Source of the DNA: Sedimentisphaera salicampi
Lineage (GTDB): Bacteria > Planctomycetota > Phycisphaerae > Sedimentisphaerales > Sedimentisphaeraceae
Assembly: GCF_002117005.1 (NCBI RefSeq)
Contig: NZ_CP021023.1
Span: 1,054,001 to 1,118,000, forward strand
Length of the DNA: 64,000 nt
Direction of reading: 5' to 3'
The notes under the pieces were generated by a model. The model saw only the letters and a program-made list of their open reading frames with translations. It was not told the DNA's origin and did not search any database. The first letter of the stretch is position 1. Each line of letters starts with the position of its first letter. Positions 24,680 to 47,500 of the stretch are shown piece by piece. The translations under genes were made by a program, and so were the position numbers.

Positions 24680-26287
24680 TCAAGACCATTTGAGAGGTAT
24701 AGTTTTCTCAGAATACCACTTGAAAAACGGGTCCTCAGTTTTTTTAAGCCAATCAAGCAGCAAAGTATCAAGTTTTGAAAATAATGCCTCATTTTCTTTT
24801 TGTTCTAGCGGATTCATCTGGTAAGGATCTTTTTCTAAATCATAAAGATGGAGCTTGTATTTATTTCCGATCATCTGAACAACATAGCTGTATCTTTCAG
24901 TTCTCAAACACCTCCAGACACCGCTTGCAGAGAAAATATTGTGTTTTTCTGCGAGCTTATATTCATTATCAGAGGGCTTGTCTCTTTGCAGGAGATAATC
25001 ATAAATCACAAACGTCGATTCAGGCCTTTCAACCCTGCCTCCTTTCAAAACGGAAGAAAAATCTTTACCTTGAACTCTATCGGGAACAGGAATATCCATC
25101 AATCCCAGCAGAGTAGGCATAAGATTGACATTATTAAAAAGCATATTATTATTGCGGGCTTTCACCTTATGAGGCCAACTTACCATCATTGGTATGCCTA
25201 TGGATTCCTCATACCACGTGCGTTTCTTCCATCTTCCATGTGAGCCCACCATATCGCCATGGTCTGAAGTATAAACAACAATAGTATCTTCTGCCAGTTT
25301 CATTTCTTCCAGATAATTCATCAATCTGCCGAAATTATGATCAATAGAAGTTACCGCTCCAAAGTAGCCCTTAATAATGTTTTTATTGTCAGCCTTGCCG
25401 TTTCTATGCTTACGTTCGAAATTCGGGCGTTTAGTGGTTTCCATATCTGCATATAATTTTTCATATTCTTCCGGTGCAAAAAATCCCCAGCTGCTCTTCT
25501 CTACAGGTATATCTTTTCCTGTTGGATATTGTTCTCTTCCGAAATGCGGCGGATTATAAGACAGAAACAGAGCAAAAGGCTCATTTTTCTTAGTCTGTTT
25601 TTTTATGTAGTCAATTGCAACATCTGTTTCGTGCTCAGGCTGCCATCTCTTCCCGAGAACAGGCTCATTCGGATCATCTTCATAATAGCAAAGATTGAAC
25701 AGGTAATTGTAGCATTCGTTTGCGTGCCAGAAATCAATATAAGGCCTTCTGCTGCGGGGACAATACTCGCGAAGATAATAGACAATATTATTGTGGTCTG
25801 AGGCCACTCTTCTTTTATTGTATTCTCCATGGCTTATTTCGGAGTCGTGTTCTTTATGGTGAGAATCCAAATGCCATTTACCCACATAAGCCGTATTGTA
25901 GCCGGCATTTTTCAAAGATTCGAAGATAGTCGGCACATTATCAAACCATACGTGTTTGTTCTGCATAACTCCGTTAGATATGTTATACATTCCTGTCCAC
26001 ATTGTTCCCCTTGAAGGGCTGCATATCGGAAAGGAACATAAAGCATTTGTGAAAACCATGCTTTTCTCAGCGAATTTATCAAAGTTTGGCGTATAAACGG
26101 GATCTTCATTCATAAAACCCATCGCCTGTTTCCTATGTTCATCAGACATCACAAACACAAGGTTTGGTTTTTTGACTTTTCGTTCATCCTTTGCTGCTGC
26201 AATTGAGCTCTTATTTAAGCTGCTGCCTGAAAAGGCTGCCATCCCAAAACCCGCAGATTTTAAAAAGTTTCTTCTTGTGAGGGTCAT
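24680..26287 (-). CDS. Sulfatase, Cys-type, Tat-exported
   Basis: 535 residues. The ATG at 26287 has GGAG eight bases upstream. MTLTRRNFLKSAGFGMAAF is a Tat signal. The core starts PNLVFVMSDEHRKQAMG; the usual second Asp is replaced by Glu, as in a subset of S1 sulfatases. The formylglycine motif is PICSPSR with C89. GKWH (near 138) and TSDHGDMVGSHGRW (near 333) complete the site. It is the last gene of the minus-strand operon, 11 bases after the sulfatase at 26305. Confidence 0.92.
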   Translation of the reverse strand: MTLTRRNFLKSAGFGMAAFSGSSLNKSSIAAAKDERKVKKPNLVFVMSDEHRKQAMGFMNEDPVYTPNFDKFAEKSMVFTNALCSFPICSPSRGTMWTGMYNISNGVMQNKHVWFDNVPTIFESLKNAGYNTAYVGKWHLDSHHKEHDSEISHGEYNKRRVASDHNNIVYYLREYCPRSRRPYIDFWHANECYNYLFNLCYYEDDPNEPVLGKRWQPEHETDVAIDYIKKQTKKNEPFALFLSYNPPHFGREQYPTGKDIPVEKSSWGFFAPEEYEKLYADMETTKRPNFERKHRNGKADNKNIIKGYFGAVTSIDHNFGRLMNYLEEMKLAEDTIVVYTSDHGDMVGSHGRWKKRTWYEESIGIPMMVSWPHKVKARNNNMLFNNVNLMPTLLGLMDIPVPDRVQGKDFSSVLKGGRVERPESTFVIYDYLLQRDKPSDNEYKLAEKHNIFSASGVWRCLRTERYSYVVQMIGNKYKLHLYDLEKDPYQMNPLEQKENEALFSKLDTLLLDWLKKTEDPFFKWYSEKTIPLKWS

Positions 26288-26304
26288 ATTCAAAACTCCA
26301 TTTA

Positions 26305-28119
26305 TTATTGATAACTGATTTTTTTGACAAGATTTTTTTCATTGATCCAAAGGACCATAATGTATTCACCTTTGGGGTAATTGGAAATATCAACAACTAA
26401 CCGATCCTCTTTTAAGGTTCGGGAATCGAAAACAGTTTTACCACCCCAGCTTCTAACCACTACTCTCAGATCAGCTTTTTTCTTAAATTTGATGTTAAAA
26501 ATTCCTGTACTGCTTTTGTTTTCCCAATTTATAATTGTGTTTTTATATTCGGCGATACGTCCTTTCCAATACTCATTAGAGGAAGATTCCTGTTTTGACA
26601 TGAACTTTTCGAGTTCATTTACATCGGCGCGTTGTTCGAATGCTTTCAAAGCTGGGTCGTTTGTTTCAATCATCCAATTTTTTAGCCGATTTCTGAGTTC
26701 ATTTATCTTTTCAAAATAAACAGAATCATTGATGAGATTGCGACGGGCAGCAGGGTCATTTTTGAAATCATAGAATTCTTCTAAAGTTCGTTGCATAAGC
26801 ATACTTATCCTGGCTTTGAGTTGCGGATCTTTTTCAGCAGCTTTTTTCATAGCCGAAAATGTCAGCCCATGGTGGGTGTCTGTATGAAAGTGGCGGTCAG
26901 TTACTGCCCAAGGATTAAAAATATAGCCGAACCTTTCGGTTTGAATACATCTCATTGTGAAAAAGCGATAAGGCCCATGACCGTTGTAATTTACATAACC
27001 CGAGCCCGCATTATACTGGGTGAATACCGCATCACGGTCAAATTGGGGCTTGCCTTTCAAAAGAGGTAAAAAAGACCTTCCATCCATACCTTCGGGTTTT
27101 TTGACACCGACAGCATCCAAGACAGTGGGCATGTAATCTACAGTTGAAATAAAATCGCTTTCATTGATACTGCCAGGCTCGATCTTACCGGGCAGTCGAA
27201 TGATCCATGGGGTTCTGGTGCTGAATAAATAACAATTAGTTTTTGCAAAAGGAAAGGCCATTCCATTGTCTGAGAGGAACATAACCAAAGTATTTTCAGT
27301 TAGTCCGTTATCATCAAGAGATTTTAAAACTTGGCCTATACTGTCATCACAACGTCGAGATGAACTGTAATACTGAGCTAATTCTTTTTTTATTTCAGGC
27401 AAATCAGGAAGAAAAGGGGGAACCTTGATCTCTTCTTCAGTGAAAATTTTTGAGGGAGCAGGATTGCTTTTGGCGATCCACCAGTTCTTTTTTTCCTTTT
27501 CGCTTCCGAAAAATGGTCTGTGTGGATCATGGGAATTGGCCATTAAGAAGAATGGTTTCCCCAAGGAGTTAGCTTTTTTAAAAAATCCATTGCTTTGTTC
27601 ATAAAACAATTGCGGATTTCGGCCAAAATTATTATCTATGTCACCTGCGATCAAATAATCCCAATGACCTTTATAAGTATCACCGAAGTTTTCAAAATTC
27701 GGCCCGTGACCTCCGATTGTAGCCTTTCCGATGATGCCATTTAAATAACCGTCATCATGCAGGCACTCAGTCAGAGTAGGTACCTTATTATCGATCAACT
27801 GAAATTCCATTACCCCGTTATTGTGTTGATATCTTCCTGTTTGTATAACTGATCTTGATGGAGTACAAACAGCGACATTGACATGAGCTTTTTTGAATAT
27901 CATTCCCTGGCCGGCAAGCCGATCAAGATTGGGAGTGACATTAGGGATATTTCCGCCAAAACACCCAGGTGTGTCATAAGCCATGTCATCGGCGGTAATT
28001 AAAAGTATGTTCAATTGATTATTGTTTACGTTTTTTACATCTGAAGCTAAACTACTTTTGAAACATAAGCCACTGACCGCTAAACCGACAAATTTTAGAA
28101 AATCTCTTCTCGAATGCAT
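26305..28119 (-). CDS. Sulfatase (Cys-type) with extra C-terminal beta domain
   Basis: 604 residues. MHSRRDFLKFVGLAVSGLCF is a Tat signal. TADDMAYDTPGC gives the metal aspartates D44-D45; VCTPSR gives formylglycine C85. The core resembles heparan-N-sulfatase-like members of family S1. FLSDNGMAFPFAKTN (near 272) is a metal-binding loop. After about residue 535 a separate beta domain begins. Its end (GGKTVFDSR, DISNYPKGEYIMVLWI, VKKISYQ) looks like type IX secretion sorting domains of Bacteroidetes. That is a resemblance by eye. It lies 29 bases after the GxGYxYP gene. Confidence 0.9.
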   Translation of the reverse strand: MHSRRDFLKFVGLAVSGLCFKSSLASDVKNVNNNQLNILLITADDMAYDTPGCFGGNIPNVTPNLDRLAGQGMIFKKAHVNVAVCTPSRSVIQTGRYQHNNGVMEFQLIDNKVPTLTECLHDDGYLNGIIGKATIGGHGPNFENFGDTYKGHWDYLIAGDIDNNFGRNPQLFYEQSNGFFKKANSLGKPFFLMANSHDPHRPFFGSEKEKKNWWIAKSNPAPSKIFTEEEIKVPPFLPDLPEIKKELAQYYSSSRRCDDSIGQVLKSLDDNGLTENTLVMFLSDNGMAFPFAKTNCYLFSTRTPWIIRLPGKIEPGSINESDFISTVDYMPTVLDAVGVKKPEGMDGRSFLPLLKGKPQFDRDAVFTQYNAGSGYVNYNGHGPYRFFTMRCIQTERFGYIFNPWAVTDRHFHTDTHHGLTFSAMKKAAEKDPQLKARISMLMQRTLEEFYDFKNDPAARRNLINDSVYFEKINELRNRLKNWMIETNDPALKAFEQRADVNELEKFMSKQESSSNEYWKGRIAEYKNTIINWENKSSTGIFNIKFKKKADLRVVVRSWGGKTVFDSRTLKEDRLVVDISNYPKGEYIMVLWINEKNLVKKISYQ

Positions 28120-28148
28120 AAATCCCTTTCTGATTTAGAGACATAATC

Positions 28149-31100
28149 TTATTTTACTGAAATTTCTATTTTATCTAAATAGACATAATCCCAGTTGCTG
28201 TCGGCTTGGCAAATAAACCTGAGCTTTGAATCCGAAGCAAAATTATAATTAGAGCTGTCCAGCTCAATAATTTGATGGTAATATTTGCCGTTCTCGAAAT
28301 CAGCTCCTGCAGAGAAGCTTTCAACTTTATCCCAAGAAGAGCCGTTATAGAATTCAAGCTTAAAGCTGTCTTGGTCTTCCAATTCCATTGAACTGGCCTG
28401 ATACCAGAAGTTAACCTTTAAATCCTGAAAAGCTGTAAGATCTGCCAGCTTAGAAATCAGAGCTGAACTCTCGCCGCTGGATTGGATTCTGACAGCCCCC
28501 TGCCCTTGATAAGCATACCCGCTGGCAGGAATATGAGAGCAGTTGTATCCTCCGCTGAGGAAATTGCCAAATCCTGTTTCAAAATTATCATAGCTTAGCC
28601 TTGTCCAATATTCAGGGGACTGGTAAAGTAAACTGATGAAATCTTCTACTCCTGTTATTACAAAATTAGGGCCTAATCGATTTTTACATTCCTGTGCATA
28701 ATCAATAATATGGTTTCCTGTATCGTAAACGGTTATAAAATAAGGCGGAGACTTTGTTTGTGCATAGCTTTCTATAAGGTTTACGATATCAAAGCCTTCC
28801 GGAGCCTTTCCTGATGGGTACCAAAGGCTGTAATCATCGCTGCATCTTACCACAGCCGTACCGCCTTCAAGATAAGTATTAATGCCGCCTTCTACTCTCG
28901 TGCCGGTAAAACATTCCACAGATGGTGCATATTGTTCATACGTTTCAACGGTACTATAATCCCAAGGATTATTTCCCGCTCCCCAAAGATCTACAAGCTG
29001 CAGTCCGGTACTTTGAAAATACTGCTCTGATAGCGAGGCGAATTCCTACAGGTTTGGAAGCCTGTTAAAGAAGGCATAAAATGCCCCAGAAGGCCCAGCA
29101 AAGAAAGAATCTCTCGGAGAAGCTGTGGACTTATAATACTCATGTATCGCAGGCCACTGCTCTGAAGCTGAAGCCTGCATACCCCACGCAATCGGAACCT
29201 GCCCCCTTGTGGAATCCAGCCAAGGGGCCCTAGGCCCCATAAATCCCGTTTGGGCTTTGGGAGTATCACCCTCGCTTACCTGAAACAGCACATAATATTT
29301 GTTTCCATCTAAGGTTAGACCTTTCTCCGGCTGCCTGAGGTATCTGTCGGCAGGCTTTTCAACCGGCACAGATGCCCAGAAACTCAGATTGCTTGCCCCT
29401 CCTGTCAATATCCATCCGCATCCTTTATCGGAAAGAGCCTGGGCAGTTTGCCATTCATATTCGAAATCCCAAGTTCCATAAAATGTTGCCGGCGAATCCA
29501 CATAATCAAGTATTTCATCAGTTATATCCCTTTGAGGGCCCTGATGTTTTACCTGACAGAAATAACTTCCATTTTTTATTCCAAAATCTGCAGAAGACCA
29601 TCTGGCATCATCCCAGCTGAAAAAATTTATATCTGAAAATGCAGTCTTGCGGTCTGTTCCTTCTATCAGATTATCCAGCGCCCAGCGTCTTGCCTGATGT
29701 TCGCTGCGCCAGTTCCCGCGAAAGTCATAAACAACTGTCAGATTTTCGAAGCATAGTTCATTCCCTTTAGCTAATCCCGGGGTCCTATAGTTCAGCATAG
29801 AGGGAGTAACAGGAAGGAGGTTTTCTTTTCCTGCTAATGTCTGAGCCATCTGCATTTCGGCCAGATCGGCTATGTACGGATTGTATAAAACAAGCCCGTT
29901 TATAACTCCCTCTTCTGAGGCGAGTTCAATTAACTGATTGAGCGACTTGATTTGAGCAAAATTGAATCCTTTCTCATTTTCCAGATAATTAATCCATTCG
30001 CTGTCAGCCTGAGGATAATACCAAGTTGAGCGTGTGTTGCAGAACAACCTTGCGTCTGTTCTGTTCATCAATCCCTGAACAGCCATTGCAAGCTTCTGCT
30101 CAAAGTAGTTAAGACGAGCGGAATTCCAATCTAAGAGCCAATCACTGCTCACATTGAAGCTTAGGATTTCTCCTTTCCATGTGCTGTTTAAGGTGCTGCT
30201 GACTTGATCTACTCTCCAGTAGTAGGTGCTGTCTGGATTCAGTCCGTTAATCTGCACAGAGGTGTTGTCTAATTCTTGGTGCCCCAAATATTCAGGGCTT
30301 GATTTATCCGCACCGCTTACCGAATCATAATCAGTACCAAAATAGATTTCATGCCCGTCTGCATAGTAACCAGACCGCCATTTCAATATAATATCCCCGC
30401 TTTCGGCAACCGGATAAAGTCGTTCATTGGCAGGTTCAAAGCCCCAAGCAGTTATAGGCCTTACAGTAAACGACCAGACCTTGCCTTTTGTCAATTCGCC
30501 GTTTTTGATTTCATCTATTCGCCAATAGTAGGATTCCCCTTTTTGCAGAAATGGGCTCTGCCAGGAGTTCTGATCTGCAGGTTTCTGTGTTTGGTACTGC
30601 TTAGAAGATGTGTCAGCATTTTTAACCTCATTTTTATCAGTGCCAAAATAAATATGAAAATAATCTGTTGGGTTGCTCCCCTCTTCCCAGCTTAGAATTT
30701 CGCTGGTTTTGTTAATGCACCCTCCATCCTCAGGGAAAGGACTGTTAGCAGTTGCAATGCCATTATTTTCAATTGCAGCATCATCGAAATAAACTACAGC
30801 ATCGTTTTGAATTCCATTTTCAACAAGAAGCTCAAATTTAACAGTGTCAACATTTCTTTCTGAAGGCACCTGAGTCATCAGGGAGTAGGGCTCAAACGAT
30901 GAAGTTGGAGTAAAGGACTGAGTAACAGTGCTTATTCTTTCGCCGCCTGCCTCAAAGAGCTGAAGTTTTAAGGCAGCCTGCCTTTCAGAATCTCCGCAGG
31001 CGTATGTACGGGCCGTAATTTCACTACCTCCAGGGAATTTGTTGTAAAACCATTGACCAGCTATTCTGAATTGGCCAGAGTTGCCTGGGGGAGCAGTTAT

Positions 31101-31940
31101 CTTCATCAACCATTCACCCGTATGCTGTTTTTCATCACTGCGGAGAACATTTTCCGCCTGCTTCCAGTAATGAGCGTTCTCAAAATCCCCTCTTTCAAAG
31201 CCTGCGTTTACTAAAACTTTCTTATGCCAGTCCTTCGAAAATCGTGCGAAATCGAGCAGATCAACTTTCTGATCACAGTTTATATCAGCAAAAAGCCTTC
31301 CCGGATATTTAACAGAAACATCATCGATGTAAACATTACCTGATCCAGTGCCTCCATTCATAACCTGAATACGCAAAAGATTAGTTCCTTCTGGAGCTTT
31401 AGCTTCAAGCTGACCTTTCTTCCAAAGGTTTATTTCATCCTGATTTGACAAGAACCATTCAGCTTCGCTCCCAACTTTCTGGTTATCTTCGAAAAACTCA
31501 ATTTTTATAATAGCATTTTTGCTGTATGAAGGTTCTGTATATTTCGCGTGTGCCGTGAGAGTAAATTTTACGCCACCTACATTTAAGTAATCACCGGAAT
31601 TATCAACAAAATCTATATCCTGATCTATGTGAGTCCATACAGCTTCATCTCTAACGAGCATCCCCCAATCTCCGCTTCGACAATGCTCTGTTTGCCTTTG
31701 GCCGTTAGAATTTTTGTTGGTGTACCAGTGTTTGGGAGCCGCCGAATCACTGCCAGCCAGCTCAAAACCCCTGTTCAGCAATACTTCAACGACCGGCCTG
31801 CCCTGCTCATAGAGCCAGTTCTTGGCCAAATATTTCGTGTCATAAGAATCGATCCGGCTGTCTGGATAAATATCACTTGAAACTGCTGAAACAAATGTAC
31901 AACAGAAATGAAATAATAAAGCAATGCTTATCAAACGCAT
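28149..31940 (-). pseudogene. GxGYxYP-family glycosidase with CBM and dockerin-like modules, interrupted by in-frame TAG
   Basis: One frame runs from the ATG at 31940 (GGGGGT just upstream) to 28149 with a single stop, TAG at 29046-29048 (codon 965 of about 1263). Order: signal peptide; dockerin-like repeat (DSRIDSYDTKYLAKNW); jelly-roll module about 55-200; second dockerin-like repeat (DINCDQKVDLLDF); another jelly-roll; two Fn3-like domains (YYWRID, YYWRVDQV); a GxGYxYP-type domain from about 610, with VSEGDT and FAGPSGAFYAFF. The TAG falls just after this motif. The frame continues EFASLSEQYF and LVDLWGAGN into the rest of the glycosidase fold and a terminal jelly-roll. The sibling at 36934 has no stop at the equivalent place. 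It may be a recent nonsense mutation, readthrough or a sequence error. The truncated product might still bind carbohydrate. Confidence 0.82.
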
Positions 31941-32062
31941 TTTACCCCCAAAGCAGTGTATAAAAAATAGATTACGCAAAATTTCACCGGCAATTTAAAA
32001 TATTCAATTTTTTCTCATTCATTGAACCATTAATAAGATATACTACCGAATTTCAAAACCAA

Positions 32063-32095
32063 CACCTTTTTGCGTATTTATATCACCAAATAGCG
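32063..32095 (-). promoter_or_regulatory. Two-half-site direct-repeat operator of the minus-strand operon
   Basis: On the minus strand CGCTATTTGGTG (32095-32084), nine bases, then CGCAAAAAGGTG (32074-32063). The start-to-start distance is 21 bp, two helical turns. The same design is found at 33319-33351. It lies between the stop codon of the XylR-like regulator and the start of the GxGYxYP gene. Confidence 0.7.
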
Positions 32096-32098
32096 AAC

Positions 32099-33259
32099 TT
32101 AAGGTTTTGCTTTTAGTTCTGAATTAGATTTTCGGAAATCCTCGGGATTTACCCCCGTTGCCTGTCTAAAGTATCTTGCGATGTGCGCTGGAGATGAATA
32201 CCCAAATTTTATAGCTATCTGATAGACTGAAAAATTAGAATCCAAAAGCATATCGCTAATGTATTTAATGCGTACTTTTTTTATTTCCTCATAAATTGTA
32301 CGGTTAAGATGTTTTCTGAATTTTTTCTCAAGGGCACGCCTGCCTATAAAAGATGCGTTTTCTAATACATCTGTAACTTGAATTGGATTTTGGGCATTTT
32401 CCCTTATGTATTTAACTGCTTTTGAAACATCCGCGTCATCTACTGCTATTACATCCGTAGATCCTCTTGTAATAACCCTAACTGCACTTGCAATTATTGT
32501 TTGTTTTTCAGGATATTCCCCTGACATCAGCCGGTCAAGGAGCTTTGCCGCTTCGAAACCCGCTTTTTTCTGATTTATAGCTACACTTGAGAGTGCGGGT
32601 TTGGTGAGACTGCATACTAACTGATCGTTATCAATTCCCAAAACAGCAATCTCATCCGGGACATTAATGCCGGCGTTGTTGCACAATTCAACTATATAAT
32701 GTGCCTTTTCGTCGTTGCAGGCAAGCATCCCATTAGGCTTGGGGAGGCTTAAAAGCCATTCTGTAATTTTCTTTTCACTTTTTTCTGTAAATTCATTTTT
32801 GAGGGTAAAATTCTGCACATCAAGGCCGCTTTGCTTTATGACGTGCTCAAACCCCTTGAACCTGTCGTCCGACCAGTAACTGTTGCTCATACCGCAAAAT
32901 GCAAATTTTCTGAAACCTCTGTCAAGCAGATATTCTGCGGCAATTTTCCCCGCGCCCAGACCATCGCCAATAATATTAGGCAAGCCTGAAATCTGCCTTT
33001 GAGAATGGGGAGCTATGATAGTTGGCAATTGAAGAGAAAGCAGTTTTTCTAATATTTCCTGATCGTGCGTTTCTCTGATAATTATCCCATCTGCGTTCCA
33101 TTGTTTGAGCTTCCGGTGAGTTTGCCCTTTCTGTCCCAGGCTTGTGTAAAACATCCAAGGGCCAAATAAGCCCGAATAATTCGCTATCCCCTCCAGCAGT
33201 CCTCTGGCATAGGCATGAGAGGTATCTATAAACAAGATTACTTTTTTTGAAGCAGGCAT
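32099..33259 (-). CDS. XylR-type transcriptional regulator (LacI/periplasmic-binding sensor + AraC HTH)
   Basis: 386 residues with AAGGA upstream. The N-terminal part has the PBP-I sugar-binding fold seen in XylR-like activators (VILFIDTSHAYARGLLEGIANY; EIAVLGIDNDQLVCSLTKPALSSV near 205-230). The C-terminal about 110 residues form an AraC double helix-turn-helix (ASFIGRRALEKKFRKHL; VYQIAIKFGYSSPAHIARYFR), ending in the family's usual GVNPEDFRK. There is no N-terminal LacI HTH. I infer that it senses a sugar released from the island's glycan and binds the paired repeats on both sides of its gene. Confidence 0.9.
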   Translation of the reverse strand: MPASKKVILFIDTSHAYARGLLEGIANYSGLFGPWMFYTSLGQKGQTHRKLKQWNADGIIIRETHDQEILEKLLSLQLPTIIAPHSQRQISGLPNIIGDGLGAGKIAAEYLLDRGFRKFAFCGMSNSYWSDDRFKGFEHVIKQSGLDVQNFTLKNEFTEKSEKKITEWLLSLPKPNGMLACNDEKAHYIVELCNNAGINVPDEIAVLGIDNDQLVCSLTKPALSSVAINQKKAGFEAAKLLDRLMSGEYPEKQTIIASAVRVITRGSTDVIAVDDADVSKAVKYIRENAQNPIQVTDVLENASFIGRRALEKKFRKHLNRTIYEEIKKVRIKYISDMLLDSNFSVYQIAIKFGYSSPAHIARYFRQATGVNPEDFRKSNSELKAKP

Positions 33260-33318
33260 AAAAAAATCCTTAAAAAATTATTATTGAAAATTATAACGAA
33301 AAAAATTTCGAAATGTTC

Positions 33319-33351
33319 GCAAAAAGGTGATGGATATGCGCAAAGTGGGTT
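33319..33351 (+). promoter_or_regulatory. Two-half-site direct-repeat operator of the plus-strand operon
   Basis: CGCAAAAAGGTG (33319-33330), nine bases, then CGCAAAGTGGGT (33340-33351), with a 21-bp period. The first 12-mer is identical to the one at 32063-32074 on the other strand. Flanks are also alike (GTT before, TTG after). It lies in the divergent region between the regulator and the gene at 33449, so it may also control the regulator. Confidence 0.72.
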
Positions 33352-33448
33352 TGTTTGTGTTTGATGTTAGATGTATGATTCTTAGCAGAAACTAAATGTT
33401 AAAGCAAGCGTTTTTAAGATTTGTTAAACAAAATGAAAGGAAGAAAAA

Positions 33449-34096
33449 ATGAAAATGGGCAGCCTTCAAAAAAGTTTCGGTTTAATGTTGGCAGTTTTGG
33501 CAGCATTCGCGTTCTCTGCTTCAGCCAATTTTATAATGAATCCAGGTTTTGAAACTGAGGACAAAAACGGAGTTGATGATGCTAAATACTGGTTCGATGA
33601 CGATGGAATCAAGGGGCAAAGAACAGATTCTGTTTCTATGACAGGAGACTGGGCTATGGAGGTTTTTGATTCTGGCACTTGGATACCGGTTTCACAGTGG
33701 GTAGATATTACAGACGGTGAAGGCAATCTGATTGATGCGGGCGGAATGGAATTCGAAATATCAGCATGGGCATTATACACCGACCCCGATTTTTCAAGAA
33801 CAGGTATTTTAAAAGCCGAATTTTGGGGTTCAGGGTCTAAGCTTGGTCAGGAAGATACTTGGTTTTTGAACAACAATGATCCAATTGATACATGGAAGCA
33901 GGGAGTTATAAATGCGACAGCCCCTTCAGGTACAAACAAAATAAAGCTTCAGTTTATGAACGGAACCAGCGGTAGCGGAAGCATTTATTTTGATGATGGG
34001 AATGTTTCGGTTGTCCCTGAACCTGCAACTTTTGCGGTACTCGGAATAGGCGCACTTTTCATGCGAAGAAAAAAACAGAACTATCAAATAAGGTAA
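33449..34096 (+). CDS. Jelly-roll (CBM-like) protein with PEP-CTERM anchor
   Basis: 215 residues. A signal peptide (LMLAVLAAFAFSASA) is followed by one module of about 155 residues. The module runs NPGFETEDKNG, a GQR segment, TGDWAMEVFDSGTW, GILKAEFWGSGSKLG and KIKLQFMNGTSGSGSIYFDD. It looks like a CBM4/9-like beta-sandwich. The C-terminus VPEPATFAVLGIGALFMRRK is a PEP-CTERM sorting signal, processed by an exosortase. No catalytic domain is present, so I infer a surface glycan-binding protein. It is the first gene of the plus-strand operon, and the same module appears twice in the next gene and once in the gene at 28149-31940. Confidence 0.85.
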   Translation: MKMGSLQKSFGLMLAVLAAFAFSASANFIMNPGFETEDKNGVDDAKYWFDDDGIKGQRTDSVSMTGDWAMEVFDSGTWIPVSQWVDITDGEGNLIDAGGMEFEISAWALYTDPDFSRTGILKAEFWGSGSKLGQEDTWFLNNNDPIDTWKQGVINATAPSGTNKIKLQFMNGTSGSGSIYFDDGNVSVVPEPATFAVLGIGALFMRRKKQNYQIR

Positions 34097-34118
34097 ATTG
34101 TCAGGAGTAAAAGCAATT

Positions 34119-36005
34119 ATGACAAAAATAAATTTAACTGCAGTCATTATTTTTTCAATACTCGCCTCAATTGCATCTGCGGACTTTCAGGCCGTAAGGA
34201 ATGCTGGTTTTGAGGAAGAGGGCGCTGCGGGTTCAGCAGACGCAAAGTACTGGATAAGTGATTCTGGAGACTCAGGTCAGCGTCAGCAATCCCAAGCTTA
34301 TCACGGGAGCTGGGGGATTGAGGTTTACGGAGACGCAACTTGGGGAAATGTAAGTCAGTGGGTTGACATGAGAGATGAGATGGGTGATTTGGTCGATATG
34401 GGCGGTGAAACAGTTACCGCTGTTGTAATGGCCAAATACACAGATCCCAATTTCACAAAAGAGGGAATATTAAAGATTGAGTTCTGGGGTGATAATCAGA
34501 AAATATCGGATGCTTCAAACTGGTTTCTTACGAATTCCGATCCTGCTGATACATGGAAGAAAGGTGAATTAACAGCCGAGATTCCCGAAGGAACTCAAAA
34601 ACTCAAGGTTCAGTTAATGAACGGGACAGACGGTGAGGGCTCGGTGTTTTTTGACACCTGCTATGCTTATTTAAGCAGCGCACCTTCTGTTTATGAGTAC
34701 ACAAATTACTCGGAGAACCACAGTTTTGAAATCGAAGATAAAAACGGCTCGACTGACGCTATGTCTTGGTTTGATGACGAAGGGATTAAAGGAGAAAGGC
34801 AGTCCAGCATTTCCCGTACCGGCGATTGGGGGATGAAAGTTTACGACAGCGGAAACTGGGTTAACGTAACTAAATGGATTGATTTCAGAGATGATAATGG
34901 TGATCTCATTGATGCCGGCGGAACGCCTCTTCATATTGAGGGTTACGCCAAATACATTGACTCGGGTTATTCCAAAACTGGGATTTTGAAAGCAGAATTC
35001 TGGGGTTCAGGCAGCAAGATTGGTCAAGCTGACAACTGGTTTTTGAGCAATTCTGATCCAATTGATACTTGGAAACTTGGCAAAATAGACACTATTGCCC
35101 CTCCGGGAACAAACAAGATTAAGCTTCAGATTATGAATGGAACCAGTGGCAACGGAAGCGTTTATTTTGATGATGTTAGAGTGCTTGTGCCGGAACCGCT
35201 CTCTATGGACTTCGACGAAAACTACCTGATTGATTCTGAGGACTTAGAAGAGATCGCAGCAAACTGGCTTGCAGACAATTACTCAGGGCCGGAAAAAACA
35301 GATCAAGTTCTTGACGACTTTGAGATCTACGGAGAGAGCGATCCTAACATAATTGATACTTGGTCTCCCGTTGCAAACATTCTCGGACAGTCGAGCTTGG
35401 AACTTATTACCGACTCTTCGCAGGCCTACGAAGGAAGCCAGACGCTGCGTTGGAGCTATTACCCGTTAGGCGATGGATACGGAGAGTACACAGGAATAAT
35501 GTACGAGCTGCCGTCAATTGTTGATATAAGCAAATATGATGAAATGCGGCTCAGGGTTAAAAGACACTCAGGCAACAGTCTTGAAGACAGCCTGTATTTA
35601 AGATTTATGGAGCCGGGTGTAGTTAGAACAGAGCTCAACGATGAACACGATATGGCAAGGGCGTCCATCCAGGCAGTTGACGGCTCAACGAAATTCCCTG
35701 AAGATGAATGGGATGAATGGGTAATAGATCTAAAAGAAGATCTCTGGTTTAACAGTGCCCATAATGCTAACGGCTATTATTCCCTCCCTGATATGACTCA
35801 GCTGGGTGCAATAGTGATAGCTGTTTACAACAATCCTAATGACGGGGAATATATGGAAACAGGGCTGATTGATGTGGATAACATCGAACTTCTGGATTAT
35901 TCCCCGACATGCTCTGAGGATTTGGCGGTTGATTTGAATAATGACTGCGTTGTAAACCTTATCGATTACAGCATATTAGCAGAAAAATGGCTGCTCGGTG
36001 AATAA
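34119..36005 (+). CDS. Secreted protein with two jelly-roll modules, a third beta domain and dockerin-like repeats
   Basis: 628 residues. The ATG at 34119 is preceded by AGGAG; a TTG at 34098 lies before that site. MTKINLTAVIIFSILASIASA is a signal peptide. Two copies of the island's module occupy about 25-190 and 200-360. A dockerin-like loop (DFDENYLIDSEDLEEIAANW) follows near 370. Next comes another beta-sandwich (VLDDFEIYGES, LRWSYYPLGDGYGEYTG) similar in outline to CBM11-type domains. The protein ends DLNNDCVVNLIDYSILAEKW, a second dockerin-like calcium loop at the very C-terminus. No catalytic residues are visible; a binding or scaffold role on the cell surface is inferred. Confidence 0.8.
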   Translation: MTKINLTAVIIFSILASIASADFQAVRNAGFEEEGAAGSADAKYWISDSGDSGQRQQSQAYHGSWGIEVYGDATWGNVSQWVDMRDEMGDLVDMGGETVTAVVMAKYTDPNFTKEGILKIEFWGDNQKISDASNWFLTNSDPADTWKKGELTAEIPEGTQKLKVQLMNGTDGEGSVFFDTCYAYLSSAPSVYEYTNYSENHSFEIEDKNGSTDAMSWFDDEGIKGERQSSISRTGDWGMKVYDSGNWVNVTKWIDFRDDNGDLIDAGGTPLHIEGYAKYIDSGYSKTGILKAEFWGSGSKIGQADNWFLSNSDPIDTWKLGKIDTIAPPGTNKIKLQIMNGTSGNGSVYFDDVRVLVPEPLSMDFDENYLIDSEDLEEIAANWLADNYSGPEKTDQVLDDFEIYGESDPNIIDTWSPVANILGQSSLELITDSSQAYEGSQTLRWSYYPLGDGYGEYTGIMYELPSIVDISKYDEMRLRVKRHSGNSLEDSLYLRFMEPGVVRTELNDEHDMARASIQAVDGSTKFPEDEWDEWVIDLKEDLWFNSAHNANGYYSLPDMTQLGAIVIAVYNNPNDGEYMETGLIDVDNIELLDYSPTCSEDLAVDLNNDCVVNLIDYSILAEKWLLGE

Positions 36006-36018
36006 CCTAAAATCAAAC

Positions 36019-36048
36019 AGTGCCCTGCTGCTTTTCCTGCGGGGCACT
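36019..36048 (+). terminator. Hairpin after the double jelly-roll gene, possible partial terminator
   Basis: AGTGCCCTGC (36019-36028) pairs with GCGGGGCACT (36039-36048), 10 bp with one G-T pair and a ten-base loop, followed by an AT-rich stretch. It lies inside the operon, so it may attenuate transcription into the enzyme genes. Confidence 0.6.
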
Positions 36049-36088
36049 TAAAAGTTTGTAGAAAAAAATACATTAAGCAGGAAATCAG

Positions 36089-36913
36089 ATGAATAAAAAC
36101 AAATTAACTAATGAAAAGGGTTTTACTCTTATTGAGCTTTTAGTTGTAATATCGGTGATAGCCCTTTTGATTTCTATAATTATGCCAGCACTGAGCGAAG
36201 CGAGAAAGATGGCGCAAAAAACCACTTGCGGTTCTAATCTGAGGCAGTGGGGAATTGCCCTGAGCTCTTATTCAAACGACTTTGATTACAAAATTCCTAC
36301 AACTTACCAGACATCCTACAAGAGAAGGCATCCTGCTATAACTGCTGGTTCTTTAAATGGTCCAGGTACAACTCCCGTTCCCGGCGGACATGTAGGCGAA
36401 TTCACTATACCTGTTATGAACCCGTATCTGCCTTTCAATAAAGAAGACGGGGAATACAATAATGTATGGAAATGCCCTGCCCAAAAAAGCGTAACAAAGC
36501 TTTGGGACACGTCGTGGAACGGGGACGGCTGGCTTCATATGTGCTACAGCTACTTCGCTGGAATCAGCAAGTGGGATCAGCGGATGATGACGGTTTCTGA
36601 ACCCTCAGACATAACCGATATGAGGCTTTCAGGGAAGAAAATAATCATGGCCGATGCCCTCTACAGATGGCAGGCCGAAGGAACTTGGTGGGTTAACCAC
36701 GGAGAATCAGGTTCTTATGTACACAACCCCAAATATGGAATAAAGGTTCTTAGAGGTCCGCCCGAAATTCAAGGACAGAATCGGCTCTACGGAGACGGCC
36801 GTGTTGAATGGAATAAAGGCAGTCAATATGACCCAAAGGCAATGGAAGAGATTTCTCCTGACACTTCTCATGTAATTGTAGGTGGAAGAGTGGGCAGCGC
36901 AGTCTTTTATTAA
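36089..36913 (+). CDS. Type II pseudopilin inside the polysaccharide operon
   Basis: 274 residues. KGFTLIELLVVISVIALLIS is the prepilin signal and assembly helix. CGSNLRQWGIALSSYSNDF is the segment that follows it in planctomycete pseudopilins. Instead of a full H-X9-DG motif it has NRLYGDGRVEW near 230, which keeps only the DG. Its position between a glycan-binding protein and a GxGYxYP enzyme, with 20 bases to the next gene, links it to glycan handling. A role in moving polysaccharide or enzymes across the envelope is inference. Confidence 0.85.
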   Translation: MNKNKLTNEKGFTLIELLVVISVIALLISIIMPALSEARKMAQKTTCGSNLRQWGIALSSYSNDFDYKIPTTYQTSYKRRHPAITAGSLNGPGTTPVPGGHVGEFTIPVMNPYLPFNKEDGEYNNVWKCPAQKSVTKLWDTSWNGDGWLHMCYSYFAGISKWDQRMMTVSEPSDITDMRLSGKKIIMADALYRWQAEGTWWVNHGESGSYVHNPKYGIKVLRGPPEIQGQNRLYGDGRVEWNKGSQYDPKAMEEISPDTSHVIVGGRVGSAVFY

Positions 36914-36933
36914 TCCCATTTGGGGCTTAGAAA

Positions 36934-38640
36934 ATGAAGCAGAAGATAGATCGCATACGTTTCCCCCACAACAAACTGCTTTTGCCAATTCTTATTGTGC
37001 TCTCAGTATGGAATTATGTTTCGGCCGAAGCGGCATCATCAGAAAAGAACTCTTATGTTTTGGACATTAAAGGCTATACAAAGCAGAAGATTGTTGCCGC
37101 TGAAACAGTTCAGGGGATAATTAACCGAAAGCAAGCAAAGCTTTTTCTCAATACAGGAAATGATAACAGATGGGTAAGCTACAGCAAACACCTTTCAAAA
37201 TCTTTAAGGTGGGAAACGGTAAACCATGCATGGATAAATCATTTCAAAAAGAGTGGCTTTTGTTTCACGCAGCTTAATGGTTTCGAAGACCTTATTAAGT
37301 CTGCATCTGACAGACTCAAAGGTGTTGTAATTTATGATATTGAAGCAAATGCGGGAATTCCTCTGGCAGTAACGATTGCAGGACTCAAAGATGCTGCGGC
37401 TGTTACAAGAGAGTTGTATAACTCTTCAGATGCTTTGAAAAAATTGCCGATTGCATTCGATCTTTCCCGCCTTCCAGATGACAAGTATAAGAGATATGAT
37501 TGGGCAATAGAAAACATACTTCCGCAATGTTCTGAAAATGCGGCTTTTTCCTATAGAAAGGGAGCAGGTGTATATTCTTTGGATATAGCAGCAGCAGAGC
37601 GGATGTTCGTTTACAATCTTTTGCACCTCTCAGAAGACGTTTTACCAAACGACAAAGAAAAAGAGCAGTGCCTTAAGGAATACGGCACGTTAAACCATAA
37701 GGATCGCAAGTATGTTGATATAATCTTGGCTCATCTTCAGCCGCTCAGCCCTGTTTGGGGTTGGGGCAAGCCAAGTGAGGCGACATTCAGGAATGTACTT
37801 ACTCAAAACGATTGCTTTGTAATGTGTGCAGAAGTGCCGAACATTTCTTTCCTAAAGAAATTGCCACCCGCAAAAAAACCATTTAAACAGAATCATATAA
37901 GACCTGAACAAGTTAAGCTTGAAGATAAGTATTATATCGCCTTTATGGTTAGTGAGGGTGATACGATTAAGTCTATGGGATCTATGATGAATGTGCACGG
38001 GGGCAACTGGCTATCCCCATGGAGAGACAAAATCAAAATAAATTGGGGAATTTCCCCCTGGCTCTGTGAAAACTATCCAGGCCTTATGGATTATTATTAT
38101 AGCACCAAAACTGAACACGATTATTTTTTTGATGCGCCTTCGGGTTATGCTTATTTATCTCCGCATCATTTGAGGAAATCTCTATTGCTTGATTTTGCTG
38201 AAAAAACCAGAGAGTCAAACAAAACAGCGGATACTCGGATAGCTGATATCTGGTATTTTTATCCGTTGAAGCCTGAAAAATTTCGTTACAAATGGCTTTC
38301 TTTAATGGATCTTGAAGGTCTGACTCAATGGGATGATAAGCAGTATGTTTCGTTCGTGGAAAACTGCCCGCCCATAGTACACAGCAACCATTACTACGAT
38401 TATCGTGATATGGATGCAGAAAAATATGCAGAAATGCTGCAAGAGGAAATGAAACAAACAGCCCCGCCGTGGTTCACAGTAGTCTACGGCGGGAATCCAA
38501 GATATTTTTATCAGGTTAGTAAATCTCTGCCTGAAGACAGATATAAGATTGTTAGTTTGGATGAATTTTTTATAGCAACAGCAAAGGCTGAGGCTAACAT
38601 CAAAGACAAAACAGTCGAAAGAACTACTGACGCAAATTAA
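36934..38640 (+). CDS. GxGYxYP-family putative glycoside hydrolase
   Basis: 568 residues with a signal peptide (LLLPILIVLSVWNYVSAEA). The N-terminal part (KQKIVAAETVQGIINRKQAKLFLN) and the later MVSEGDTIKSMGSMM, INWGISPWL, YYYSTKTEHDYFFDAPSGYAYLSP match the GxGYxYP family; the name motif is present as PSGYAYLSP. The C-terminal region ends YKIVSLDEFF. The family is predicted to act on polysaccharide, with no firm enzymology known to me. The only intact one of the two in the island, it serves as the reference for the interrupted copy at 28149-31940. Confidence 0.8.
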   Translation: MKQKIDRIRFPHNKLLLPILIVLSVWNYVSAEAASSEKNSYVLDIKGYTKQKIVAAETVQGIINRKQAKLFLNTGNDNRWVSYSKHLSKSLRWETVNHAWINHFKKSGFCFTQLNGFEDLIKSASDRLKGVVIYDIEANAGIPLAVTIAGLKDAAAVTRELYNSSDALKKLPIAFDLSRLPDDKYKRYDWAIENILPQCSENAAFSYRKGAGVYSLDIAAAERMFVYNLLHLSEDVLPNDKEKEQCLKEYGTLNHKDRKYVDIILAHLQPLSPVWGWGKPSEATFRNVLTQNDCFVMCAEVPNISFLKKLPPAKKPFKQNHIRPEQVKLEDKYYIAFMVSEGDTIKSMGSMMNVHGGNWLSPWRDKIKINWGISPWLCENYPGLMDYYYSTKTEHDYFFDAPSGYAYLSPHHLRKSLLLDFAEKTRESNKTADTRIADIWYFYPLKPEKFRYKWLSLMDLEGLTQWDDKQYVSFVENCPPIVHSNHYYDYRDMDAEKYAEMLQEEMKQTAPPWFTVVYGGNPRYFYQVSKSLPEDRYKIVSLDEFFIATAKAEANIKDKTVERTTDAN

Positions 38641-38665
38641 CCAGCATAAAGGAGATATATAGTAA

Positions 38666-39781
38666 ATGAGATTCAAACAAAATCCGCTTATAACGCCCTC
38701 GGATGTAAAAGCCAGCCGTCCTGATTATGAAGTGGTTTGTGTTTTCAACCCGGCAGTAACAATATACAGGGATGAAATTATACTTTTGCTTAGAGTAGCT
38801 GAAAGACCTATACAAACTAATGGTTATATCTCTGTGGGTGTTTTGGATGTTAATTCCAGCAGAGGCGACTACGAAAACATTCACATATCGCGTGAAGCCG
38901 AGTCTTTAAATGACAAGGACTGTCGTGTGATCAATTATAAAGGCCAAAGCTACACCACCACAATCTCTCACCTGCGAATTGCAAGAAGCAAAGACGGGGT
39001 TAATTTCAAGATTGAAGATAAGCCTTTCATTAGCGCATCAGGGGTCCACGACCGCTATGGAGTGGAAGATGCGCGAATAACACAAATCGACAATGATTAC
39101 TATATAACTTTTGCATCCATCTCTTCTGAAGGCGTTTCTACTGCTTTGGCTAAAACCAGCGATTGGAAAAGCTATGAGTACCTTGGGATTATATTCGCGC
39201 CTATGAACAAAGATGTAGTAATTTTCCCTCGAAAGATTAACGGCAAATATATTGCTGTTCACAGACCTGATGCCGGTGAGTTTGCAAGGCCATCAATGTG
39301 GCTTGCGAGCTCTCCTGACCTGAGTCATTGGGGCGAAAGCAGCCTTCTTATGAAAACACGTGATAATATGTGGGACAGCCACAGGATTGGTGCAGGGTCA
39401 GTTCCTGTGGAAACTGAAAAAGGCTGGCTGAGCATCTATCACGGATGTAACGAGTTCAGCGAATACCGCTTAGGCCTGCTTCTGCAAGCTAAGAATGATC
39501 CTTCAAAAATTATCTTCAGAAGCAGTGAACCGTTGATGAGTGCCGAAGAAGAATACGAACAAAATGGTTTTTTTAATCACGTTGTATTCACAGATGGATT
39601 AGCGTATTTTCCTGAGCAAGACAGAATCTTTTTGTATTACGGGGCCGCTGATTTGTGCGTTTGCGGTGCTGAATTCAGCTTTTCGCAGCTTTTATCTAAA
39701 ACTGATGGGGGTTACAAAAACCCTGATCGCAATTTTTCAGACAGATTGAGCTCAAAAACAAGTAAAATCAGCAACATTTAA
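38666..39781 (+). CDS. GH130-family glycoside phosphorylase/hydrolase
   Basis: 371 residues, no signal peptide, so cytoplasmic. A five-bladed propeller pattern is visible, with FNPAVTIYRDEIILLLRV near 28-45 and YGVEDARI near 131-138, where the acidic residue of the E-D-A/P-R motif is the GH130 catalytic acid. IYHG (near 260) and YYGAADLCV (near 327) are further family landmarks. Characterised GH130 enzymes phosphorolyse beta-mannosides (to mannose-1-phosphate) or hydrolyse them. This points to a mannose-containing oligosaccharide being imported, but subfamily and linkage are unknown. Confidence 0.88.
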   Translation: MRFKQNPLITPSDVKASRPDYEVVCVFNPAVTIYRDEIILLLRVAERPIQTNGYISVGVLDVNSSRGDYENIHISREAESLNDKDCRVINYKGQSYTTTISHLRIARSKDGVNFKIEDKPFISASGVHDRYGVEDARITQIDNDYYITFASISSEGVSTALAKTSDWKSYEYLGIIFAPMNKDVVIFPRKINGKYIAVHRPDAGEFARPSMWLASSPDLSHWGESSLLMKTRDNMWDSHRIGAGSVPVETEKGWLSIYHGCNEFSEYRLGLLLQAKNDPSKIIFRSSEPLMSAEEEYEQNGFFNHVVFTDGLAYFPEQDRIFLYYGAADLCVCGAEFSFSQLLSKTDGGYKNPDRNFSDRLSSKTSKISNI

Positions 39782-39812
39782 CAAAGTGATAGCGATTATC
39801 AAAGGAGACAAT

Positions 39813-42137
39813 ATGCAGTTTAGGCCCCAATGTGTTTTCTTTTTATTTCTTGCAAGTGTTTGGGTTTCATTGCCGCTGTATGCCGAAAAATCGTACAGCA
39901 GGAAGCTAAATTCAAACACCGATATTGATTTGCAGCAGATAATAAATAACAGCAGCGAACACTGGAGATGGCTGAGTCTTCCCGGCAGCCGTTTAGTTCT
40001 TAATCCTTCTTGGGAAGTCAAAGAGCCTATAGGGGCAATGCGAAAGGATCTTGCCCTTGATATCGGCTATTGGTTTGGGGGGAAATGCTGGAAACTAAGA
40101 GATGCTGTCGCGATCACGGCCTCGGAGAATTCCAAGATCAAGGAAAACAATACTTTAAGCCTAGCCAGCGCTGAAGAATTCACTGAGATAGAAACTTGGC
40201 AAACTTCCAACCTCAATTCAAAAGCTACTGAATATGGGCTAAAACTTACCTCAGAAAAGGACTACGGTTACGCAGCCTTCGAGCTGCCTTCAAGTTTCAG
40301 CTTAAAGAAACTTAAGGTTTCAATAGATATTGCAGAAACAGACGGAAAATGGGGACTGAAATTCAATTCAGGCAAAGGCCCGGACAGGCCTGTTGTGGTG
40401 GCTCAAACACACCATACCGGGTTGCATACTTACAATGTTGACCTTTCTGAAATGAAAAATAAGGGCAAAAAACCTTTGGTTAAGATATTTGCTGTAGGCA
40501 AGGATAAAAGTGTCTGGATTAGATCATTGAAGCTCACAACAGTCCTTGAAGCTGGCAAAGAGGCAGAAGAGATTCACACTGCATGGCAGCCCCATAAACT
40601 AACCTTCAAATCAAAATATGAAGGCTATAATATTATGATGCAGGGCTTCGATTCTCTAGCGGGGGATAATACAGTTGTAAGACAAATTGAATTTTCAAAT
40701 CCCTGGCAAAGATATGTTTACCTTTCAGGTTTTTTCAATAACTGCAATTTGCTTTCCGGGGAAGCAGGCGTTTTAGTTTTCGGAAGAGAAGAATTTAACT
40801 ACGCAATTTCATTTTTCAAACAATCTGCAAATGGCCGACTGAGAAGGATCAAAGCTAAACCAAATTTTTATCAGGATTTCTGGCTGTTTAAGTATAAACC
40901 GGCAAAAAACGAAACAATGGTTGTCTCGATTGGGTTTTCAACTGTTTCAGAAGGCGTTGAAACTGCTTTAGAGAGAGCTGAAGGCATATCGGCAAAAGAG
41001 GACATACTCGCCAGCACCACAAGCAGGTGGCAGGAGCTTTTGAATAAGATTCCTGTTCCCGAAAATTTCGGCATCGAAAAAGTGCACCCAAGAGGGATAT
41101 CCGGAGATGACCATAAACTCTTCTATTATGGTGCTTGGTGTTTTCTGCTCTCAGACATACTCCCTGTTATGCCGGAAAACAAATACGGTTATCCTCAGAT
41201 TGCCACAGGCAAACCTTCCGGCTGGAATGCAGGGGCATCGAAAGCAAAAGCAACAGCTGCATGGGACAGTTTTGTTGCCCAGCAGCTTCTGGGGCATATT
41301 TGTCCCCAAACAGCATGGGACGCTTTCGAAGGAATTATGACGCAGGTCGATCAGACCGGCTGGCTTGAGGGAGAATGCCTACCTTCCAGAAAAGCTCAGA
41401 CAGCATGGGTGCTTTACGATATCACCCAAAACATAAACCGTCTTGAAAACGTCTATCCGGCAGTAAAAAGATATCTGCTCTGGCGAGAAAAAAATCCTCG
41501 CTGGATTTATGAAAGCCATAACATCCCTTCAGAAAAAGACAGCAGTTTTATTACTGCCTGGCTGGCTGACGTAAAACACGCTATTAAAATTGCTGAAACT
41601 CTCGGCAAAGATGAAGATGTTCAGATGTGGCAGCGGCGGTATAAGGCAATGATCCCCAAATACAGGAAATGGCTGTTTCATACAGACGGCAGTTATCCTG
41701 AGAATTTCTACTTTACTGATAGAGGCAAACATTCGCACCCTTCAAGACCTAACTCTGAACAGTCTTATGTATTAAAAGGGCTTTATATAAGCGATCTGCC
41801 AGAAAAAATGAATCAGGATTTGATCAGGTATTACGAAGACGTGCATAATCACAATGAAAGGCTTGTCGGCTTTGATTTTATCAAATACCCTGAAGCTCAG
41901 TATATTGCTCTAGGCCTTATAGAACAAGGCCTGCATGAAAAGGCTCAAGAATTCATAAACGCCATAATAAGAGATACCGTTATTACAGGAGAGTTCACAG
42001 AAGTGCTGGAAAAAGGTAATACTGAACCTGCAGGTGTTGTACCAAGCTTATTCACTGCTGTGCAGATGATAGATTTTACGTTAATGAAAAATCATATCCG
42101 TTTGGACAAAGGCAAACTTCAGCCGCTGGATTACTAA
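39813..42137 (+). CDS. Putative secreted (alpha/alpha)6-toroid glycosidase
   Basis: 774 residues from the ATG at 39813, which has AAAGGAG five bases upstream. The signal peptide is CVFFLFLASVWVSLPLYA. The N-terminal half is beta-rich, with jelly-roll-like phrases. From about 430 the sequence shows helical-hairpin motifs of six-hairpin glycosidases (ATAAWDSFVAQQLLG, TQVDQTGWLEGECLPS, SSFITAWLADVKHAIKIAETLG, YNTLR-like spacing absent). It resembles the GH63/trehalase-like helical enzymes in outline; I cannot assign a GH family. The neighbours make an exo-acting enzyme on the island's glycan likely. Confidence 0.65.
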   Translation: MQFRPQCVFFLFLASVWVSLPLYAEKSYSRKLNSNTDIDLQQIINNSSEHWRWLSLPGSRLVLNPSWEVKEPIGAMRKDLALDIGYWFGGKCWKLRDAVAITASENSKIKENNTLSLASAEEFTEIETWQTSNLNSKATEYGLKLTSEKDYGYAAFELPSSFSLKKLKVSIDIAETDGKWGLKFNSGKGPDRPVVVAQTHHTGLHTYNVDLSEMKNKGKKPLVKIFAVGKDKSVWIRSLKLTTVLEAGKEAEEIHTAWQPHKLTFKSKYEGYNIMMQGFDSLAGDNTVVRQIEFSNPWQRYVYLSGFFNNCNLLSGEAGVLVFGREEFNYAISFFKQSANGRLRRIKAKPNFYQDFWLFKYKPAKNETMVVSIGFSTVSEGVETALERAEGISAKEDILASTTSRWQELLNKIPVPENFGIEKVHPRGISGDDHKLFYYGAWCFLLSDILPVMPENKYGYPQIATGKPSGWNAGASKAKATAAWDSFVAQQLLGHICPQTAWDAFEGIMTQVDQTGWLEGECLPSRKAQTAWVLYDITQNINRLENVYPAVKRYLLWREKNPRWIYESHNIPSEKDSSFITAWLADVKHAIKIAETLGKDEDVQMWQRRYKAMIPKYRKWLFHTDGSYPENFYFTDRGKHSHPSRPNSEQSYVLKGLYISDLPEKMNQDLIRYYEDVHNHNERLVGFDFIKYPEAQYIALGLIEQGLHEKAQEFINAIIRDTVITGEFTEVLEKGNTEPAGVVPSLFTAVQMIDFTLMKNHIRLDKGKLQPLDY

Positions 42138-42154
42138 TTTTTTAAGGGAGAAAT

Positions 42155-44035: not shown

Positions 44036-44038
44036 GCT

Positions 44039-45661: not shown

Positions 45662-45672
45662 GCAGTCTAAAA

Positions 45673-47466: not shown

Positions 47467-47500
47467 AACCAAAAAAATTTGGGCGTTTAGAGAATAGATT

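Follow-up and report, generated by a model that had tools for sequence, protein, structure and literature searches.

E. coli XylR has the same domain order over its full length as a XylR-like regulator encoded in the 64-kb stretch of Sedimentisphaera salicampi DNA that was analysed in this study (hereafter, the window). The ligand of E. coli XylR is xylose. The protein has two sites at each of its promoters, xylA and xylF (PMC7567609), and these sites have been described as direct repeats (PMC12125979). When the intergenic region was scanned, a direct repeat with 9/12 matches at 21 bp was found ahead of xylF. The xylA-xylF region nevertheless scores below zero with the matrix of the order derived here, as the half-site sequence differs from that of the window, and such a score is in keeping with the residues at positions 308 (S), 359 (Y) and 362 (S). 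XylRA of the Vibrio beta-1,3-xylan locus is likewise a XylR-family regulator at a polysaccharide locus. It is an activator whose direct-repeat sites were obtained by comparative genomics and confirmed by EMSA, but it differs from the present case in its AT-rich repeats without CGC/GG ends, its xylose effector and its origin in the Gammaproteobacteria (PMC12125979). Direct-repeat XylR sites are already known from E. coli and Vibrio, whereas novelty, within the literature searched, appears to lie in the half-site, in the code shared across the family and in the bacterial group. Literature searches returned no work on XylR-like operators in Planctomycetota, and nothing relevant on the genus or on a residue code.

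More generally, AraC binds at araI1-I2 to direct half-sites which lie two turns apart and abut the -35 box. AraC at araI1-I2 and MarA at the marbox resemble the predicted arrangement in the window in having two HTHs, each of which reads one end of a half-site. On the other hand, their sensor domain is unlike that of the window regulator, and MarA differs in that it binds one site as a monomer. Little seems to have been described of how sulfatase and glycan-degrading operons are controlled at the transcriptional level in Planctomycetota. An operator design combined with a residue-base code would provide testable targets for many regulators together and could tie orphan glycan operons to particular sensors. 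It would also offer a natural variant set in which to study the avoidance of cross-talk among paralogous AraC-type regulators.

The regulator and the sites flanking its gene

The regulator is a member of the XylR family, as seen from its sensor, its double HTH, its full-length similarity and the direct-repeat half-sites beside its gene. The N-terminal domain is periplasmic-binding-protein-like (Pfam Peripla_BP_3, 2e-37), with a score of 22.9 bits against PBP1_XylR, under the 27-bit cut-off for that model. The C-terminal part is an AraC-type double HTH (HTH_18, 1e-16) which aligns to MarA. The E. coli XylR structure 4fe4 matches residues 5-381 (E 5.9e-50), and identity to E. coli XylR is 30%. 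Our analysis makes it highly probable that the two sites flanking this gene (Table 1) are operators of the regulator encoded between them, and that through them it would activate both flanking sulfatase/glycan operons in a ligand-dependent, class II manner. The computed evidence covers the site, its spacing and orientation, the promoter geometry and residue-base covariation.

The original prediction had described a pair of half-sites on both sides of the regulator. Re-reading of the sequence showed that its minus-strand coordinates, 32095-32063, are exact, and that the plus-strand site is present but had been placed one position too high, at 33319-33351. The nine-base gap, the 21-bp period, the preceding GTT and the following TTG are true of both sites; each consists of 33 bp, with two 12-bp half-sites separated by 9 bp and half-site starts 21 bp apart. 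The units had also been called divergent. This applies to the plus unit, but the minus unit lies on the regulator's own strand, with the minus site located between the regulator stop codon and the next gene.

Table 1. Positions of the regulator, the flanking units and the predicted regulatory elements in the window
Feature	Position	Strand	Description
Minus unit	24680..31979	-	GxGYxYP-domain protein (TAG-interrupted), two sulfatases
Predicted promoter of minus unit	32035..32062	-	-35 TTGGTT (32062-32057), 16-bp spacer, -10 TATCTT (32040-32035)
Predicted operator of minus unit	32063..32095	-	CGCTATTTGGTG N9 CGCAAAAAGGTG; with flanks, GTT-CGCTATTTGGTG-ATATAAATA-CGCAAAAAGGTG-TTG (site 32095-32063); reads toward 31979; held-out score 33.8 bits
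XylR-like regulator	32099..33259	-	386 aa; LacI-type ligand-binding domain and C-terminal AraC-type double HTH
Possible own promoter of regulator	33290..33318	-	-10 TATAAT (33295-33290), weak -35 abutting distal half-site
Predicted operator of plus unit	33318..33350	+	CGCAAAAAGGTG N9 CGCAAAGTGGGT; with flanks, GTT-CGCAAAAAGGTG-ATGGATATG-CGCAAAGTGGGT-TTG (site 33318-33350); reads toward 33449; held-out score 31.6 bits
Predicted promoter of plus unit	33351..33379	+	-35 TTGTTT (33351-33356), 17-bp spacer, -10 TATGAT (33374-33379)
Plus unit	33449..48538	+	Ten co-directional ORFs, inter-ORF gaps -4 to 83 bp
Plus-unit ORFs 1-5			PEP-CTERM protein, secreted protein, N_methyl pilin-like protein, GxGYxYP, GH130
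Plus-unit ORFs 6-10			783-aa protein, SSF symporter, two sulfatases, URO-D family

The best model for the GH130 protein of the plus unit is mannobiose phosphorylase, with 402.6 bits against a cut-off of 550. Because this score is under the cut-off, a mannose-containing sulfated glycan as the inducer is only a guess. No xylose genes were seen among the annotated units. The gene that opens the minus unit (GxGYxYP) contains an in-frame TAG at 29046-29048 on the minus strand, beyond which the frame is open to 28149 with the domain continuing weakly; the TAG may have arisen recently by nonsense mutation, or it may be where the gene genuinely ends. The 783-aa protein of the plus unit (39786-42137, plus strand) is without a confident Pfam match and shows weak likeness to a six-hairpin rhamnosidase domain (E 0.011); judging by this likeness it is possibly an undescribed glycoside hydrolase. 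Pilin-like N_methyl proteins are found in or near the start of two separate operator-led units, at 36089-36913 in the window and at locus L172, downstream of the site at 259406.

Direct repeats beside XylR-like genes of the order

Among 59 relatives the closest homologue of the window regulator is 47% identical, and an orthologue scan of genome contigs gave a single distant match. Since no close orthologue was found, the family was examined instead of orthologous operons. The family sample comprised 118 XylR-like genes (LacI-type sensor and AraC-type DNA-binding domain) with their flanks, taken from the genome and from relatives of the same order; internal stops in some homologues were treated, not case by case, as alignments overrunning a natural stop. 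In a test that assumed no motif, the best 12-bp direct repeat per flank was recorded at spacings from 13 to 39. For the 118 regulators spacing 21 had a z of 7.9 upstream and 5.4 downstream, compared with 0.8 inside genes, and upstream there were 27 loci with at least 10/12 matches at this spacing against a mean of 2.8.

Iterative fitting seeded by the half-site consensus yielded a matrix that reads TTKCGCAAAATGGY-(A/T-rich gap)-CGCAAAATGGCNTTK. The folds in its cross-validation were whole clusters at 55% identity, and the cluster of the window regulator was left out of its training. With the held-out matrix, scores over 20 bits were obtained in 66 of 235 flanks, as compared to none in the shuffled flanks and 0 of 236 stretches from within genes. 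For 76 of the 118 regulators, a site that scored more than 10 bits when held out was present within 300 bp, reading away from the regulator; by the same thresholds none was present for the other 42, which include 15 carrying the consensus contact residues. Almost all sites above 15 bits are oriented away from the regulator, toward the adjacent unit (56/59 upstream, 26/26 downstream). The two-sided layout, with a site on each side of the regulator, was observed at ten loci, the window included. The two sites of a locus share more similarity (28.8/39) than do sites taken from separate loci (21.5/39); this would be expected if every regulator recognised its own pair of sites. The 21-bp signal and the held-out matrix both support the original suggestion that the sites are probably AraC-type operators of the XylR-like regulator on both units, and orientation, a fixed distance to the promoter and covariation with DNA-contact residues point the same way. 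One upstream flank (locus L099) has a pair, CGTAATATGGTG / CGCAGAAAGGTG, at spacing 23 and not 21, perhaps because of an insertion or as an out-of-phase site.

Covariation between HTH residues and bases of the predicted operators

In 60 dereplicated regulators, E311 pairs with G at columns 1 and 22 of the site, R362 with G at columns 8 and 29, and H359 with G at columns 9 and 30, while N359 pairs with A at the latter two columns (10/10 cells). Identical residue-base pairs arise independently in both half-sites. High z values were also obtained for two ligand-domain columns, in each case confined to a single half-site. Site similarity followed that of the DNA-binding domain when the ligand domain was removed (partial r 0.198, reached in 1/500 permutations), and no such relation was detected with the ligand domain when the DNA-binding domain was removed (0.044, 142/500 permutations). 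Independent pairs were counted on the ligand-domain tree, taking all branches of this poorly resolved tree, and gave 10:0 for E311 (p 0.002), 6:0 for H359 (p 0.03), 5:0 for R362 and 3:0 for N359 with A. When supported branches only were taken, too few independent pairs were left, and no pairing averaged in the opposite direction. In the controls the difference was at most 5; as some unrelated columns of the DNA-binding domain reach 5:0, R362 and H359 alone are unexceptional by pair counts.

In the alignment to MarA, R308/E311/K312 correspond to W42/Q45/R46 and A358/H359/R362 to Q92/T93/R96, the MarA positions being in crystal numbering, two above gene numbering. Q45, Q92, T93 and R96 are DNA-contacting positions of MarA. 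Helices 3 and 6 of MarA enter the major groove, and W42 and R46 are important (PMC11633057).

Outside the order, a further 46 regulators belonging to other families within the class were examined. Here too spacing 21 is in excess (z 2.8 on each side), although more weakly than within the order. The best-scoring sites there, about ten that were picked with the order's own matrix, retain CGC where R308 and E311 are retained, and the GG pair is gone from both half-sites where H359 and R362 are gone. This agrees with the code, in data that were not used to find it. On balance, we favour the view that the expanded XylR-like set of the order shares one operator architecture with a readable code (R308/E311 for CGC, H359/R362 for GG and N359 for GA), that for most of these glycan regulators the operators and target operons are predictable from the protein sequence, and that single regulators commonly drive both flanking operons from matched sites.

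Promoter geometry, mode of action and paralogous regulators

Of 82 sites, 17 have a -10-like element (TANNNT) at offset 55 and 35 have one at offset 56, compared with about 3 per offset elsewhere. Counted over starts from 53 to 58, such an element is present in 60 of the 82 sites against 13.7 in control windows. In the site alignment TTG occupies columns 33-35 and the -10 columns 55-61. Because a -10-like element follows at a fixed offset, the trailing TTG is most likely the -35 box and would lie outside the operator. The -10 of the minus unit agrees with the family offset (column 55-56), and so does that of the plus unit (offset 56). The promoter claim is based on alignment across sites; a generic consensus promoter scan of the window reported neither of the two proposed promoters (3 found against 4.9 expected). 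The proximal half-site abuts the target -35 at a fixed phase, which is a feature of class II activation.

The following mechanism could be envisaged. A dimer of the regulator would put one AraC-type domain on each half-site, the two half-sites being two helical turns apart on the same face of the DNA. The first HTH would read CGC via R308 and E311, and the second would read GG via H359 and R362. As the promoter-proximal half-site abuts a sigma-70-like -35, with the -10 about 17 bp further, we infer that the ligand-bound regulator could recruit RNA polymerase at the adjacent -35 and thus switch on both flanking sulfatase/glycan units by class II activation. Binding to the plus site would in addition cover the regulator's own promoter, whose weak -35 abuts the distal half-site, and could therefore repress it, so that the regulator might be autorepressed.

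It is unlikely that the sites, as real operators of the window regulator, serve it mainly in the role of a repressor or dual regulator and not of a class II activator. A ligand domain of LacI/GalR type and the closeness of the plus site to the regulator's own candidate promoter would suit such a role. However, a repressor needs neither fixed orientation nor phase, whereas the operator is placed upstream of the -35 and abuts it in a fixed orientation; moreover, both E. coli XylR and the XylRA protein of Vibrio act as activators (PMC12125979).

The 3.19-Mb genome contains 12 full-length XylR-like paralogs, which is a large expansion. It was covered by pattern searches and in selected stretches. 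CGCN5GGTGN9CGC has seven exact matches in the genome, of which four resemble promoter sites: the window pair, a site at 1814982 beside another XylR-like paralog, and a site at 2057810 with an interior identical to that at 1814982. A relaxed scan gave 22 matches, as compared to 12 for a reversed control, and its best 13 comprise the window pair, sites beside at least four paralogs and sites at distant genes. The distant site at 1653746 is followed by a sulfatase, and those at 3067989, 3170429 and 2057810 by putative GH97-like, NPCBM-type and sialidase-like genes. The expectation that a genome scan would recover further sulfatase or glycan genes is borne out to this extent, but most of these sites carry the sub-motif of another paralog. 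Since the interiors of the distant sites fall into sub-motifs matching particular paralogs, the scan yields several regulons and not one. Similarly, the proposed regulon motif does recur as a predicted operator, but CGC-N5-GG at 21 bp is shared by most XylR-like paralogs of the genome and the order, and it therefore marks the family and not a single regulon. The window regulator may be limited to its two local sites.

With so many paralogs, several of which share R308/E311/H359/R362 and near-identical half-sites, the window sites might instead be bound by another XylR-like paralog or by several in cross-talk. We regard this as improbable: likeness is greater between the two sites of a locus than between sites of separate loci, the distant sub-motifs go with particular paralogs, and the GGTGAT interior of the window pair was not seen at other paralog sites. 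Control by the regulator encoded between the two sites is the preferred reading.

The short pattern by itself is not rare. With one mismatch allowed, CGCN5GGTGN9CGC has 4 matches in the window against 1.9 expected, and 15 of 100 shuffles reach 4; the loose string alone is not beyond chance there. It is the family evidence that places the window sites beyond chance, as their held-out scores stand against controls none of which reached 20 bits. A chance similarity in AT-rich promoter DNA has a negligible probability, being refuted by the held-out matrix, with which spacing, orientation, the offset of the promoter and residue covariation agree. Two further intergenic sites, L186 (1918595; CGCAAATTTGTTTTAAAATTCCGCATTTTTGTG) and L189 (2981895; CGCATATTTGTATAAAAATTCCGCAAATTTGTG), are alike and perhaps serve a regulator whose second HTH has another preference.
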